Of a stretch of 34,006 bases of DNA, positions 1,561-28,882 are shown piece after piece. Position numbers and translations under genes: made by a program. Below the pieces are notes generated by a model. The model had not been told where the DNA came from. It did not search any database and saw only the letters and a program-made list of their open reading frames with translations. Location: NCBI GenBank assembly GCA_903827265.1, contig CAIKHN010000013.1, positions 1-34,006 on the forward strand, given 5' to 3'. This stretch comes from Candidatus Uhrbacteria bacterium. GTDB lineage: Bacteria > Patescibacteriota > Patescibacteriia > UBA9934. Numbering within the stretch: the stretch's first letter is position 1; each line of letters opens with the position of its first letter.

Positions 1561-3459
1561 TTACTTTCGAGAAACAATGTCGCGATAAGCGCGCATCAAC
1601 TGCTGAAGCTTTTCGTCGTCTCCCGACAACTCCGCTTCACGGATGTCACGCTCCAAGGCGGATCGCAACATGCGATTCCGCTCCTGGGAAACAATCGTAA
1701 TATTTCTGTCCGCTTCTTGTCGCACCTCTGTAGGCGAAAGTCCGACCAAGAGCTCGTCCATGCGGAGGGCCAAGGCGTTCACTGCGGATGTCTCCCGCAA
1801 TTTTCCTTGTGCATCGAGCCAGGTCCGAAGTCGCGTAAAAAGAGTTTGTTGGGGTGCCGACGGTGTGGGAAGCTGTTCGGCCGCATGATACACAATGCCG
1901 AGCGCGTTGTACAGCGTTTTCCACAAGTCACTCGAGAGCATTTCTTCGCGAATCACAGACAAGATCTCCTTCGTGAAGCCCTCATATCGAAGCGCGACAC
2001 CAAACAAAAATGCTGCCGCTTGATCGATTTTCGTGTCCGGAACAATCGGCAACGCCACGATCGGCACCGGCGAGATCGGAGCTTTCCCGACCGCACCCTT
2101 CACTGGCGCCACTCTCGCCGCCAGCATCTGCTGAAGCGAATCGATGTCAACGTGCGTCGCATCGCTCATCCGAAGTAAATACAAATGTCGCGAATCCGGT
2201 CGTTGGAGTTTTGCGACGTACGGCAACAACTCGTCGACAAGTGCCTTTCGCGCCTCGATTTTGGCAGCTCCCGACCCGTCCTCGAATCCCCGAAGACGCT
2301 TCGTAAAAACATATTCAATGACGTCTTCCGAATGCACAGCGATCTTGCGCCACAAGTCGGGATCTTTTTCGACGATCTCGTCGGGATCTTTTCCTGCTCC
2401 ATCTGGAATAATCAAACACCGAATTTCGAATTGCGGCGCATTGGGATCCTTTTGAAGCTCAAGCGCAAGATCGAGCACGCGCTTTGCCGCGGCAAACCCC
2501 GCAGCGTCCTCGTCGAGCGCGAAGATGATGCACTTTGTGTATCGCGCTAATGTCCGAAGCTGCGATGTGGTGAGCGCAGTTCCCGACGATGCAACAATAT
2601 TTTCGACGCCGGCCTTGTGCGACGCAATAACATCAAGGTTCCCCTCAACAACAATAATCGACTTCTTTTCTCGCATTCCCGCCTTCGCCAAATGCAGTCC
2701 GTACAACATGTCGCCCTTCTTGTAGATGGGCGTTTCCGGCGAATTCATGTACTTCGGCCCGTCATCCCCCCTCCTTTCCAAGGAGGGATCGGGGGTGGTT
2801 GGAACAGGCAATTGACGCGCAGTAAACGCAACAACATTCCCTGCCGCATCGCAGAGTGGAATCATCATTCTATTTCGGAAGCGATCAACAATTCCCGATC
2901 CGCTCTTTCGCTGTAGGCCGAGTCCGCCTTGAAGAATCTCAGCATCGGTAAATCCATTCCGTTTTAGACACGTTACGAGTGCATCCCACGAATCTGGTGC
3001 CGCGCCGAGTTTAAATTTTGCGACGAGTTCTGCAGGAATATTGCGCTTTGCAACATACGCACGAACCGCTTCGCCAAACGGTGCATCGGCGAGCGTTGAT
3101 GCATAAAACTTTGCGGCAACGTCGTGCATCGCAATCAATCGTTCCTTCGTATGATCCTCCGGTCGTGGTTTGTATGCCGGAAGCTCAACTCCAGCTTTCA
3201 GCGCTAAATGACGAAGCGCCTCCGGAAACGTGAGGCCGTCAATCTCCATCACAAAACTAAAAATATCACCGCCTTTGTCGCAACCAAAACAATGCCAGCT
3301 CTGGCGTTCGCGCGACACGTGAAAACTCGGTGTACGCTCCGCATGAAACGGGCACAGTGCCTTTAAACTCCCCACCCCGGCCGGTTTTAACTGAATATAG
3401 TCGCCAAGCACCTCGGCGACGTCCAATTTCTGTTTAATCTCATCTTTAGGCTCGAGCAT
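1561..3459 (-). CDS. dnaG: DNA primase
   Basis: Makes RNA primers at the replication fork. The 632 aa show the N-terminal CHC2 zinc finger (C36, H39, C57, C60), the polymerase core, and a TOPRIM domain starting near residue 266 with VVEGNLDV (E272) and the DED metal motif in FALDEDAAGF. The C-terminal third is the less conserved helicase-binding part. An extra 15 or so residues (about 219-233, PTTPDPSLERRGDDG) sit between AFTARQL and GPKYMNSPETP, where family members run straight on. They are encoded by a GC-rich palindromic repeat inserted in frame. The start is ATG 3457-3459, with a TACAAT box ending 6 nt upstream and no Shine-Dalgarno, so the mRNA is probably leaderless. rpoD follows. Confidence 0.97.
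   Translation of the reverse strand: MLEPKDEIKQKLDVAEVLGDYIQLKPAGVGSLKALCPFHAERTPSFHVSRERQSWHCFGCDKGGDIFSFVMEIDGLTFPEALRHLALKAGVELPAYKPRPEDHTKERLIAMHDVAAKFYASTLADAPFGEAVRAYVAKRNIPAELVAKFKLGAAPDSWDALVTCLKRNGFTDAEILQGGLGLQRKSGSGIVDRFRNRMMIPLCDAAGNVVAFTARQLPVPTTPDPSLERRGDDGPKYMNSPETPIYKKGDMLYGLHLAKAGMREKKSIIVVEGNLDVIASHKAGVENIVASSGTALTTSQLRTLARYTKCIIFALDEDAAGFAAAKRVLDLALELQKDPNAPQFEIRCLIIPDGAGKDPDEIVEKDPDLWRKIAVHSEDVIEYVFTKRLRGFEDGSGAAKIEARKALVDELLPYVAKLQRPDSRHLYLLRMSDATHVDIDSLQQMLAARVAPVKGAVGKAPISPVPIVALPIVPDTKIDQAAAFLFGVALRYEGFTKEILSVIREEMLSSDLWKTLYNALGIVYHAAEQLPTPSAPQQTLFTRLRTWLDAQGKLRETSAVNALALRMDELLVGLSPTEVRQEADRNITIVSQERNRMLRSALERDIREAELSGDDEKLQQLMRAYRDIVSRK
2765..2803 (-). repeat. GC-rich palindromic repeat inserted in frame in dnaG
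   Basis: On the minus strand CCAACCACCCCC is followed by a palindrome CCCTCCTT-gga-AAGGAGGG and a G-run. Related copies occur at 14740-14785 (hypothetical gene), 23686-23725 (ligA) and 25316-25352 (intergenic). Here the copy is translated as PTTPDPSLERR inside the primase core without breaking the frame. Confidence 0.8.
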
Positions 3460-14695: not shown

Positions 14696-15082
14696 TTACC
14701 AAATCTTCCACCATGGTCTATTTACAGACCGTTCGGTAGCTCCCACCCCCTCCGACTCCCCCTCAGAAAGGGGGAGGGATTTCACGGAGCGCACCCACCC
14801 GTCGATGCGACGCATTTCTTTCTCGATCGTCGGCCCTTCGTACTCACCGCTGTGCGCGTGATTCACTCCGTACGATGGCTTCTTTTGGTCTAGATGCAGG
14901 CTAAACGTCACTTCGTCATTCTTTTGATCGACGTACAAATGAAACCGAGGGTAAAACTCTCCCGTCAATCGCAACACGAAACTCTCCTCCCCGCTCTGCG
15001 GATCTGTAAACGCCGAATATCCCGCTTTTCGCAAAACGGCCAACGGACTATGCATCACGGATTTGTCGTAGACCACCTTCAT
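14696..15082 (-). CDS. Hypothetical protein with in-frame repeat insertion
   Basis: A 128-aa protein starting MKVVYDKSVMHSPLAVL at 15082. The frame continues upstream through tRNA-Ser, so this internal ATG is preferred; TACACT ends 6 nt before it. I recall similar proteins as uncharacterised in Patescibacteria. Its core (about 20-97) is predicted mixed alpha/beta (SFVLRLTGEFYPRFHLYVDQ). Residues about 101-118 (SLPLSEGESEGVGATE) come from a GC-rich palindromic repeat. The protein then ends in an aromatic tail RPWWKIW. The repeat thus sits between the core and the tail, a place that tolerates insertion. Confidence 0.75.
   Translation of the reverse strand: MKVVYDKSVMHSPLAVLRKAGYSAFTDPQSGEESFVLRLTGEFYPRFHLYVDQKNDEVTFSLHLDQKKPSYGVNHAHSGEYEGPTIEKEMRRIDGWVRSVKSLPLSEGESEGVGATERSVNRPWWKIW
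14740..14785 (+). repeat. GC-rich palindromic repeat copy 2
   Basis: CCCACCCC, a short spacer, then TCCCCCT-caga-AAGGGGGA. It has the same plan as the dnaG and ligA copies and is read in frame, in the opposite sense, by the hypothetical gene 14696-15082. Confidence 0.7.
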
Positions 15083-15088
15083 ATCTCC

Positions 15089-15094
15089 AGTGTA
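15089..15094 (-). promoter_or_regulatory. -10 box for the 128-aa gene, leaderless start
   Basis: TACACT ends 6 nt before the ATG at 15082. The -35 position (TCGCCT, same as for dnaG) overlaps the tRNA-Ser terminator stem. Confidence 0.45.
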
Positions 15095-15096
15095 AC

Positions 15097-15120
15097 AAAA
15101 AAGAACCGCGAAGGCGATTC
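15097..15120 (-). terminator. Terminator of tRNA-Ser
   Basis: Stem GAATCGC/GCGGTTC with a CTTC loop (15103-15120), followed on the minus strand by six Ts, just after the tRNA's CCA end. Confidence 0.85.
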
Positions 15121-15125
15121 TTTTT

Positions 15126-15213
15126 TGGCGGAAGGGGAGAGATTCGAACTCTCGATACCTTGCGGTATACACGCGTTCCAGGCGTGCGCACTAGGCCACT
15201 ATGCGACCCTTCC
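15126..15213 (-). tRNA. tRNA-Ser (anticodon GGA)
   Basis: Read on the minus strand, the 7-bp acceptor GGAAGGG/CCCTTCC encloses a D arm, the anticodon stem CACGC/GCGTG with loop CTGGAAC (anticodon GGA), a long variable arm (TATACCGCAAGGTAT) typical of class II tRNAs, and the T arm GAGAG-TTCGAAT-CTCTC. Discriminator G and an encoded CCA follow. The length is 88 nt with CCA. It has its own promoter and terminator. Confidence 0.97.
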
Positions 15214-19991: not shown

Positions 19992-20428
19992 AGCGCCCCC
20001 AGCACCACCAATGCCCGCTTGAATTCCGCAATTGCCTTTTCTGCTTGCGCAATCTTCAACTCCGAACCTGCTTCGTGTACGAGCGTGTTGCGCAATGACC
20101 GCGCCCAAAAGGTTCGTTGAAGATCGTGATATTTTCTGCTCGCAAACTTCAATCGCTCCCCAGTCGTTGTTCCCGGAAATGCTTTTGCCTTCAGCGCGAG
20201 TTCGAGCACCGCATCGGCCTGAATAATCGCCAAACGCAAACTCATTATGTCACCCCGACCCGCCAAATCTTCAACCGCCTTCCAGTGTTTCGCGACAGAA
20301 TCACGCTCGCTCCCGAATCTCCACCGTCGCATTGTTCGCCGAATCCACACGGTCGCGATCACGAGAAATACAAAACCGACGACACCGATCACCACATACG
20401 GAATGATGTCAAAGCTAAGCTTTAACAT
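19988..20428 (-). CDS. Membrane-anchored HEPN-like domain protein
   Basis: A 146-aa protein with one N-terminal membrane helix (about 8-29), a basic stop-transfer RRTMRRWR, and a helical cytoplasmic domain ending in FWARSLRNTLVHEAGSEL. R113-x4-H118 matches the Rx4-6H motif of HEPN domains, several of which are RNases. I recall proteins with this segment as common in Patescibacteria. The ATG at 20426-20428 has AAGGA 5 nt upstream. It stands at the edge of a REP copy, so the first codons (MLKLSF) come from the repeat. It overlaps lgt by four bases. Nuclease activity is unproven, and the domain may be purely structural. Confidence 0.75.
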   Translation of the reverse strand: MLKLSFDIIPYVVIGVVGFVFLVIATVWIRRTMRRWRFGSERDSVAKHWKAVEDLAGRGDIMSLRLAIIQADAVLELALKAKAFPGTTTGERLKFASRKYHDLQRTFWARSLRNTLVHEAGSELKIAQAEKAIAEFKRALVVLGAL

Positions 20429-20490
20429 CTGAATCCTTGAAATATCAGGCATATCATCGTATGCCTCGAAAGGCAAAGCTAAGCTTTAAC
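20410..20490 (-). repeat. Paired REP element (81 bp) at the gatA/HEPN-like junction
   Basis: Two copies of GTTAAAGCTTAGCTTTG (minus strand, at 20474-20490 and 20410-20426) stand 64 bp apart, the same period as the pair beside the RAYT gene. The 47-bp spacer contains the hairpin AGGCATA/TATGCCT. The first copy holds the gatA stop codon (TAG); the second begins within the ATG of the next gene. Confidence 0.88.
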
Positions 20491-21906
20491 ATTCAACGCC
20501 TCAAATGCTGCGGCGACCTGCAGAACCTTGTTATCGTCGAAATTCTTTCCAAGAATCTGCAATCCCACCGGCAACCCGTGCGCCGTGCCACATGGAACGG
20601 AGATGCCTGGGATACCCGTAATATTCGCGGCAACGGTAAAAATATCGGCAAGATACATTGCGACAGGATCGTTCATCTTTGCCCCAACATCCCACGCGAC
20701 AACCGGCGACGTCGGGCTCACGATAACATCAACACGCGCAAATGCTTGATCGAATTCTGTCTTTAACGCCGCACGAACCGCGATTGCCTTTTTGTAATAC
20801 GCGTCGTAATAGCCAGCAGACAAAATGAATGTCCCGAGCATAATTCTGCGTTTTGTCTCTGCGCCAAATCCTGCACCGCGTGCTGATCGGTAGCTCTCTT
20901 CAATCGCACCCTCACCACGATTCCCGTATCGCATACCGTCGAATCGTGACAAGTTACTGCTCGCTTCCGCTGGCTGAATAATGTAATACGCCGCGAGAGC
21001 GTATGGCGAAAGCGGCAAGGAGATGTCAACAATTTCCGCGCCTGCCCCTCGGAGCTTCTCGATGTTTGATCGAACGCACGTTGCGACATCTTCATCCATT
21101 CCATCAATGAAATATTCCCTTGGTACACCAACGCGAACGCCCTGAAGACTCAGCGACAAATCAGCCGCCACTGGCTCATCGAGCACAACCGAAGTTGCAT
21201 CGAGCGGATCCTTTCCTTCGATAACAGACAAAACGATTGCCGCATCTTCAACATTCTTTGTAAACGGGCTTACCTGATCGAGACTTGATGCAAGCGCAAC
21301 AATTCCGTAACGCGAAACACGTCCATATGTTGGCTTCATCCCGACGATTCCACACAGTGATGCTGGCTGACGAACGGATCCGCCAGTATCCGAACCAAGC
21401 GCAGCAGGAACCATATCCGCAGCAACAGCGGCCGCGGAACCACCCGAAGATCCACCAGGCGTTTTTGTAACGTCTAATGGATTTTTTGTTTTTTGAAATG
21501 CTGATGTTTCGGTGGACGATCCCATCGCAAACTCGTCCATGTTTGTGCGGCCGATGATAATTGCGCCAGCGACCTGTAATCGAGCAACGACCGTTGCGGT
21601 ATATGCCGCGCGATAGTCCGCAAGCATTTTTGATCCCGCGCTTGCAACATGGCCCATGAGAAGCATGTTGTCTTTGATTGCAATCGGAACTCCAGCAAGC
21701 GGGAGACTTTTTTCTCCAGCAGCATGACGAGCGTCAACGTCCTTCGCCGCTTTGCGTGCATCGTCGGCAAATACTTCCAAGAATGCGCCGATCTCGCCGT
21801 CTTTTTTCTCGATCCTGCTCAACGCCTCGTCGACAATCGATGCCGCAGTTGCCGATCCCGAGTTCACCGCATCGCGAATTGCTCTTACCGTCCAGTTCGT
21901 GGTCAT
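20479..21906 (-). CDS. gatA: Glutamyl-tRNA(Gln)/aspartyl-tRNA(Asn) amidotransferase subunit A
   Basis: Amidase subunit of GatCAB; it releases ammonia from glutamine to amidate mischarged Glu-tRNA(Gln) and Asp-tRNA(Asn). The 475 aa contain the Ser-cisSer-Lys triad region: the Lys in VPIAIKDNML, then GGSSGGSAAAVAA and DTGGSVRQPASLCG. The length is normal. The last codons (NVKA-stop) lie inside the REP copy at 20474-20490, so insertion replaced the original C-terminus. The start follows gatC with only TCT between stop and ATG, and no Shine-Dalgarno. No gatB is in this window. Confidence 0.97.
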   Translation of the reverse strand: MTTNWTVRAIRDAVNSGSATAASIVDEALSRIEKKDGEIGAFLEVFADDARKAAKDVDARHAAGEKSLPLAGVPIAIKDNMLLMGHVASAGSKMLADYRAAYTATVVARLQVAGAIIIGRTNMDEFAMGSSTETSAFQKTKNPLDVTKTPGGSSGGSAAAVAADMVPAALGSDTGGSVRQPASLCGIVGMKPTYGRVSRYGIVALASSLDQVSPFTKNVEDAAIVLSVIEGKDPLDATSVVLDEPVAADLSLSLQGVRVGVPREYFIDGMDEDVATCVRSNIEKLRGAGAEIVDISLPLSPYALAAYYIIQPAEASSNLSRFDGMRYGNRGEGAIEESYRSARGAGFGAETKRRIMLGTFILSAGYYDAYYKKAIAVRAALKTEFDQAFARVDVIVSPTSPVVAWDVGAKMNDPVAMYLADIFTVAANITGIPGISVPCGTAHGLPVGLQILGKNFDDNKVLQVAAAFEALNVKA

Positions 21907-22197: not shown

Positions 22198-24612
<2,415 letters not shown>

Positions 24613-28135: not shown

Positions 28136-28142
28136 CGGAGGT

Positions 28143-28223
28143 GTTAAAGCTTAGCTTTGCGATCGAAACCGCGATCGAATACGCCAAGATTTTCGATCAT
28201 TTAAATGTTAAAGCTTAGCTTTG
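28143..28223 (+). repeat. Paired REP element (81 bp) at the 3' side of the RAYT gene
   Basis: Two direct copies of GTTAAAGCTTAGCTTTG (28143-28159 and 28207-28223) stand 64 bp apart. The 47-bp spacer has arms GATCGAAA (28161-28168) and TTTCGATC (28191-28198). The inner copy encodes the RAYT C-terminus (AKLSFN). Confidence 0.9.
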
Positions 28224-28839
28224 CCATATCTCGATGAGGAATCCACTCCCGAATGAAGACCAGATATTCTTCAGTCGACATTAACGACATCAAAAATTCT
28301 GGATGAATAATTGGGTCGATTGACGCGCCAATGTAATGACGAAGACTTGACCATGGATATTCCACGAGTTTTTCGAATCGTCCGCTTCCCTCTTCAAATA
28401 CATCGAGTTGATTCAAATGAACGTACCGCGTCGAATGTAAAAACTGTCGATCGTCCTCGATCAAAACGGATTTATACGATGATTCGAATAACGAACCGGT
28501 TCGATCGTATTTTCGATTAAAGTATTTTGTGTACCCCGTACCAAGTCGCTGCATGAATCGCGCGACTCCATCATCGACGACCTGCTTCAAAATAAAATGT
28601 ACGTGATTATTCATCAACGTGTAACAAATGATCTCGACCAGTGGAGTCGTCGAACGCAATGGATGACTACCGTCTTCCCCGAGTTCGGGCTTCCTTGCAA
28701 TAACTTCGTCGTCGTTGAAAAGAATACAACCCCGAAGAAACCGACGACGATCCTCATCACAGAGAAAAATATCCCGCCGATCGACTCCACGATTGTAAAT
28801 ATGGTAGTAGCAATCGGCCACCATCGGAGTAACGCGCAT
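28201..28839 (-). CDS. REP-associated tyrosine transposase (RAYT, TnpA-REP/Y1 HUH family)
   Basis: Single-strand-specific HUH nuclease related to IS200/IS605 TnpA, usually domesticated and active on nearby REP sequences. The 212 aa show YYHIYNRGVDRRDIF, the HUH motif in LMNNHVHFIL (H79, H81), the catalytic-Tyr helix GYTKYFNRKYDRTGSLFESSY (Y103 or Y106), and the RAYT hallmarks RYVHLNQ and YPWSSLRHYIG. All are intact, so the protein could be active. The last residues (AKLSFNI) come from the REP copy at 28207-28223, and the stop lies just beyond it. Start ATG 28839; MVADCYY at residue 6 is an alternative. Confidence 0.93.
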   Translation of the reverse strand: MRVTPMVADCYYHIYNRGVDRRDIFLCDEDRRRFLRGCILFNDDEVIARKPELGEDGSHPLRSTTPLVEIICYTLMNNHVHFILKQVVDDGVARFMQRLGTGYTKYFNRKYDRTGSLFESSYKSVLIEDDRQFLHSTRYVHLNQLDVFEEGSGRFEKLVEYPWSSLRHYIGASIDPIIHPEFLMSLMSTEEYLVFIREWIPHRDMAKLSFNI

Positions 28840-28865
28840 AATAGATTGATTTTCCTACTTCAAGT

Positions 28866-28882
28866 GTTAAAGCTTAGCTTTG
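28866..28882 (+). repeat. Single REP copy at the 3' end of rnhA
   Basis: GTTAAAGCTTAGCTTTG, identical to the other four copies. It supplies the final codons and the TAA stop of rnhA (NKAKL-stop). No partner is seen 64 bp to either side. Confidence 0.9.

Follow-up and report, generated by a model that had tools for sequence, protein, structure and literature searches.

A short repeat with the layout of an intrastrand triplex motif lies in frame in the DNA primase and other genes of a patescibacterial genus

An in-frame insert in DNA primase

The window analysed here, a stretch of 34,006 nucleotides, carries on its reverse strand a dnaG gene (1561-3459), identified from its open reading frame (ORF) and domain matches. 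The encoded DNA primase of 632 amino acids matched the Pfam domains DNAG_N, zinc ribbon and Toprim as well as NCBIfam TIGR01391. Its motifs AFTARQL and GPKYMNSPETP are separated by the residues PVPTTPDPSLERRGDD; the surrounding ORF segment reads AFTARQLPVPTTPDPSLERRGDDGPKYMNSPETP and the linker carries PVPTTPDPSLERRGDDG. Four DnaGs of the same genus, 89-95% identical overall, have PGATE(L/I)DG instead, the site reading ARQLPGATE(L/I)DGPKYMNSPETP, and since none of them contains these residues, the insert is private to one genome. Comparison with these sister species places the inserted residues PTTPDPSLERRGDDG at 2763-2807 (reverse strand), in place of a native linker of the GATEL type. The net length change is +27 nt, or +9 amino acids, and the frame is kept. 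The initial annotation had reported about 15 residues interrupting the protein. The insert is indeed real and in frame, with a net gain of 9 residues rather than 15 because the native linker was partly replaced.

The position is variable in more distant DnaGs of the same order, where the FTxR and KYMNSP motifs stand 7-26 residues apart with unrelated sequence between them, and the solved primases 2au3, 5guj and 5vaz show a gap of 12-13 residues there. Conservation of these residues in DnaGs of genomes that lack the repeat family had been named as what would overturn the reading as an inserted repeat; they occurred in no other DnaG compared. An AlphaFold model (pLDDT of 84 overall) placed the insert, at a pLDDT of about 47, between confidently modelled strands. 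We infer that, once translated, the inserted residues form a loop ahead of the invariant KY motif, probably neutral to the enzyme. A DnaG match in a genome labelled Uhrbacteria (G027; L039 / L329) contains one in-frame TAA.

At the DNA level, the insert coincides with a candidate triplex-forming element at 2768-2800, delimited by its sequence and hairpin architecture, whose G-rich strand is the forward strand and hence antisense to dnaG. Its forward-strand layout is CCCCTCCTT-TCC-AAGGAGGGA-TCG-GGGGTGGTT. The C-rich stem CCCCTCCTT (2768-2776) pairs at 8/9 positions, with a single mismatch between C2768 and A2788, to a first G-rich stem, AAGGAGGGA (2780-2788), across the 3-nt loop TCC, and the palindrome itself covers 2769-2787. 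Behind a second 3-nt loop, TCG, lies a putative third strand, GGGGTGGTT (2792-2800), assigned from its sequence, the covariation code described below and published triplex motifs (PMC4666352). Laid antiparallel to the first G-rich stem, it would form five G.G-C and three T.A-T triads with one mismatch. A 30-base pattern describing the element found no match in 100 dinucleotide shuffles. For its base composition, the dnaG copy has an ordinary hairpin energy (z of about -0.4, against -2.5 for the ligA copy). Plain hairpin stability was discarded as evidence, as the dnaG copy did no better than shuffles; what supports the DnaG case is that the element belongs to a repeat family and that the corresponding sites are empty in sister species, independently of hairpin energy.

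Two further elements lie in the window. The first, ACCTCCCCC-TTG-CCCCCTCCTT-CGT-AAGGAGGGGG (23684-23718, forward strand), sits in frame within ligA (22198-24291, reverse strand) and encodes a 15-residue peptide. The second (14745-14776, forward strand), a covariance-model match of the ACCCCCTC-CGA-CTCCCCCT-...-AGGGGGAG subfamily, lies in a small ORF (14696-15172, reverse strand), close to the 3' end and in frame, where it reads KSLPLSEGESEGVGA. The dnaG repeat, initially described as occurring elsewhere in the window, does recur there in the form of these relatives, not as identical copies. An Rfam scan of the window returned two tRNAs only.

A repeat family in the genome and the genus

A 17-base palindrome search recovered the dnaG copy together with many relatives, and with a 141-base query a copy in another gene matched the dnaG stretch at 92% over 37 nt. 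We built a covariance model from 15 copies and accepted matches up to an E-value of 0.1, the weakest of which are uncertain. It matched the dnaG element at 2761-2807 and gave 26 matches in this genome (G000) and 7, 69, 17 and 18 in its sister genomes G001, G002, G003 and G004, respectively; other genera of the same family yielded few. The genus belongs to Patescibacteria, and its order includes two metagenome-assembled genomes named Candidatus Uhrbacteria, a placement taken from matches at identical positions (G219 with G027, G218 with G054). An assembly artefact was dismissed, as the family occupies the same loci in independent sister genomes.

Roughly one in two of the copies inspected at the DNA level (37 of 71) lie inside ORFs of at least 250 amino acids, as do 15 of 25 in this genome. 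Here the carriers include dnaG, ligA, leuS, valS (two copies), sufS, radA, mnmA and secA as well as EpmA/LysRS-like, PEP-synthase-like and MurL-like genes; in the sister genomes, gene names were judged by eye from short peptides. This abundance of in-frame copies in unrelated, mostly essential proteins fits the analogy, drawn at the outset for the dnaG copy alone, with protein-coding insertions such as the Rickettsia palindromic elements (RPEs). Copies are 33-37 nt long. One 37-mer, ACCTCCCCCCGACCCCCTCCTTCGTAAGGAGGGGGAG, is common to five of them and is read as two different 12-residue peptides or left untranslated. Since the identical 37-mer occurs in different frames or outside genes, it is the DNA that was copied, not the peptide. 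Of the 37 in-gene copies, 29 are oriented with the G-rich strand as the coding strand, dnaG being among the exceptions; this orientation leaves all three frames open in the common loop, and part of the strand bias follows from that. One copy, near position 1500 of L008 (G000:C4:65285-65332), lies directly upstream of an ATG, with an AAGGAGG arm at the place of a Shine-Dalgarno sequence.

Anatomy of the element

We searched the bare core CCCCCTCCTTNNNAAGGAGGGGG, which is neutral to orientation, across 84,980 species and found it in many phyla among the matches listed. Within these listed matches, a tail close to ACC(A/T)CCCC directly precedes the stem on its 5' side, on one side of the palindrome in 107/131 cases and on both in 8/131. 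Overall, 115/131 palindromes from many phyla carried a C-rich tail, as against 1% of random 18-mers, while the 3' end of the stem formed a sharp boundary in aligned flanks. Tail and stem arm are mirror images, and a different arm goes with a different tail: CCCCCTCCTT is accompanied by CC(A/T)CCCCC, CTCCCCCTT by ACCCCCTC, CTCCCTCCTT by CCTCCCTC, CCCTCTCCTT by CCTC(A/T)CCC and CCTCCCCTT by ACCCCACC. Across 268 alignable hairpins, the tail had A or T at 377/402 positions opposite an arm T and C at 1717/1742 positions opposite an arm C. The mean A/T fraction across arm types was 0.83, compared with 0.53 and at most 0.66 when arms were exchanged, a permutation that yields no clean probability and overstates independence because the arm types are phylogenetically related.

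Read on the G-rich strand, this match is the code of an antiparallel purine-motif triplex, with G on G-C and A or T on A-T. Published criteria for class II intrastrand triplex motifs allow stems 6-15 nt long, loops of 1-6 nt and at most one mismatch (PMC4666352). The dnaG copy falls within these limits (stems of 9, loops of 3 + 3, one mismatch), and in the 268 hairpins, set against exchanged arms, the putative third strand matches the G-rich stem by the purine-motif code in mirror register. On these sequence grounds, the element is very probably an intrastrand triplex motif. Its G-rich strand could fold into a purine-motif intrastrand triplex, and the conserved feature would be that structure. 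A G-quadruplex on the same strand is possible, yet it leaves the position-by-position mirror match of tail and arm unexplained. The element is in any case more than the plain palindrome initially described: a stem with a mirror-symmetric third strand, present in many phyla, which in DnaG partly replaces the native loop.

In an even sample of the phylum, the exact core occurred in 10/145 genomes, and a reversed control pattern gave almost no matches. G155, one of these ten and a member of another family, also has copies in long ORFs that we read by eye as conserved proteins, an IleRS and a prepilin peptidase among them. Across phyla, 40/79 palindromes lay in ORFs of at least 250 codons compared with 78% of random positions, which therefore indicates only moderate avoidance of genes. 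A role as a DNA uptake sequence was set aside, the copies being too few and the 35-nt unit strongly structured. Among IMG/VR contigs, a few carry the element (L361-L368), two with an ACCACC tail and six stretches with a long core; these 2 and 6 stretches give no support to viral contigs as vectors.

Sister species differ in which linkers are occupied

We searched the flanks of 15 further sites in the four sister genomes and compared them as protein and DNA. Typically, some species had a short native linker where others carried a different repeat in the same linker, and by our count, made by eye, the linker was re-used by a different repeat-like insert in another species at 10 of 16 compared sites. 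The LigA linker holds a CCTCC-type element in G000 and G004 and a CTCCC-type element in G002, and is empty in G001 and G003; linkers in SufS, RadA, ValRS and SecA behave in the same filled, empty or swapped manner. A Nomurabacteria LigA with only 42% identity holds an element of this kind in the corresponding loop. Measured length changes were multiples of three between +21 and +39 nt. These net changes vary in size, and the compared sites showed neither a target-site duplication nor a clean boundary such as would mark a classic insertion event.

Other repeats appear in the same proteins. The Candidatus Nomurabacteria ligA (L206 4439-5700, forward strand) apparently contains three repeat-like inserts, PPSPLQGEGQGG, NPLLNKEGVGG and SSPLVKGGIEGG, one of them in the loop that is also occupied in the window ligA. 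Repeat-like peptides VIPAQAGIQ, ASVAKQS, HSEQSEES and EATDGK were found in the C-terminal linker of SecA in G001-G004 (L176, L178, L179, L163), in LeuRS (L153) and in ValRS (L177), genes that also carry the triplex element, and some of these peptides share its linkers. Several unrelated repeat families thus seem to share tolerant sites.

Relation to known elements

Holder et al. (2015) described class II intrastrand triplex motifs as PIT elements, whose best-studied form, TM_ECO, occurs 3610 times in 262 proteobacterial genomes (PMC4666352). TM_ECO folds in vitro by CD and NMR, in vivo footprinting did not show the fold, no mobility genes lie nearby and in E. coli it is always intergenic (PMC4666352). 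Our element shares the order of parts (C-rich stem, short loop, G-rich stem, 3-nt loop, second G-rich stem), the class II purine motif, a high copy number, the lack of an adjacent mobility gene and tolerance of one mismatch. It is nevertheless no TM_ECO subfamily: the TM_ECO consensus is CCCTCNCCC-N3-6-GGGNGAGGG-N3-GGGNGAGGG, whereas the arms here are CCCCCTCCTT or CTCCCCCTT rather than CCCTCNCCC, and about half of the examined copies are in frame inside long genes, in Patescibacteria and many other phyla, instead of being intergenic.

With RPE-1, RPE-4 and RPE-6, in turn, the element shares a repeated palindrome translated in frame within unrelated, often essential proteins, and tolerance at surface loops is probably common to both. 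RPEs, reviewed in PMC10969869, differ in that they are described as about 150 bp long, with a conserved peptide, and belong to the Rickettsia lineage, whereas our element is 33-37 nt, is read in several frames, carries a mirror third strand and occurs in Patescibacteria. It therefore works like an RPE and is built as an intrastrand triplex motif. Short intragenic REPs have also been reported by Di Nocera et al. (2013), many of them in replication and repair, DNA ligase and tRNA synthetase genes, with those of R. conorii equated with RPE-4 and RPE-6 (PMC3733652). These GTAG/CGTC REPs, likewise palindromes of 20-40 bp in genes for replication, repair, tRNA synthetases and DNA ligase, in some cases recur at roughly one site across related genes (recB). 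In place of a GTAG/CGTC end tag, our element has the C-rich mirror tail, the only conserved end in aligned flanks, and no adjoining REP-associated tyrosine transposase (RAYT). A literature search of incomplete coverage gave no account of the motif or of triplex motifs translated in frame; work on palindromic repeats in Patescibacteria does not describe the element, and searches with the motif letters gave unrelated papers only.

Possible routes of spread

The insert in DnaG is almost certainly an insertion of the repeat element. That the DnaG loop simply varies in length and is GC-rich by chance is hardly credible: the loop does span 7 to 26 residues within the order, but the insert matches the genome's own repeat family at 92% over 37 nt and is absent from four sister species. 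It is also improbable that the host selects a structure, be it triplex, quadruplex or hairpin, to regulate expression or replication of dnaG and other genes. The coding orientation of the G-rich strand in 29/37 copies and the many information-processing genes among the carriers would suit such a role; however, a single species has the dnaG copy, one repeat can stand in for another, in-gene positions track linkers rather than control regions, and the three frames that the G-rich orientation keeps open partly account for the bias. More improbable still is an RPE of the RPE-1, RPE-4 or RPE-6 type in another phylum, even though short in-frame inserts in many unrelated genes, with replication and repair genes struck as by RPE-4, RPE-6 and other intragenic REPs (PMC3733652, PMC10969869), resemble those elements; judged from their description, the RPE length of about 150 bp and the conserved RPE peptide (PMC10969869) contrast with 33-37 nt read in several frames, and the element has its mirror third strand.

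As regards the mover, an REP-type element mobilized in trans by a RAYT (Y1_Tnp), in the manner of GTAG REPs, seems rather unlikely. Short hairpins of patchy distribution are REP-like (PMC3733652), and this genome has two Y1_Tnp genes, one of them in the window (28201-28839). Yet the repeats on either side of these two genes are different ones, TGTTAAAGCTTAGCTTTG in the window and GGGGTCAGGTCTTGAAT at locus L091, and we discarded mobilization by the window's own RAYT on account of that other palindrome. The element was near none of 40 Y1_Tnp loci from relatives and palindrome-bearing genomes, nor at L091, with the window serving as a working positive control. G002, the genome with most copies, gave no Y1_Tnp match, although at 97% completeness its assembly could lack a transposase gene.

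Overall, we consider it probable that a short, repeated, triplex-capable element has given rise to in-frame copies retained in tolerant loops. Folded single strands may be the form in which copies spread, host replication or repair being the likeliest agent of their placement, by way of template switching or illegitimate joining where forks stall; selection would then retain only in-frame copies in flexible surface loops. Host replication and repair are proposed because no dedicated transposase was tied to the copies, and are favoured over a RAYT because 40 transposase loci lacked the element and G002 lacked a Y1_Tnp match. Spread with no dedicated transposase falls somewhat short of an even chance, and an undiscovered transposase is a possible mover. 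Only tentatively, and with doubt, would we speak of a mobile element, pan-bacterial and some 35 nt long, with its triplex as the main conserved feature, driven by structure with no transposase of its own and repeatedly shaping loops of essential Patescibacteria proteins in frame.

The element joins two literatures, those on protein-coding palindromic elements and on intrastrand triplex motifs. It suggests that recurrent odd peptides of uncultured bacteria are translated DNA repeats, not domains, which bears on annotation and structure prediction. Filled, empty and re-filled sites in sister species make the spread of transposase-less repeats directly testable and reveal insertion-tolerant loops in DnaG, LigA, SecA and tRNA synthetases.

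The RAYT-like gene of the window (28201-28839, reverse strand) is bracketed by TGTTAAAGCTTAGCTTTG palindromes at 28136-28159, 28200-28223 and 28859-28882, and two more inverted TGTTAAAGCTTAGCTTTG copies lie 8 kb away (20405-20430 and 20472-20496). At L091 (G000:C24:12500-17000), a Y1 transposase of 288 amino acids (positions 1473-2336) is bracketed by inverted GGGGTCAGGTCTTGAAT copies. The window RAYT with its TGTTAAAGCTTAGCTTTG palindromes looks like the REPtron of a second, unrelated repeat family.
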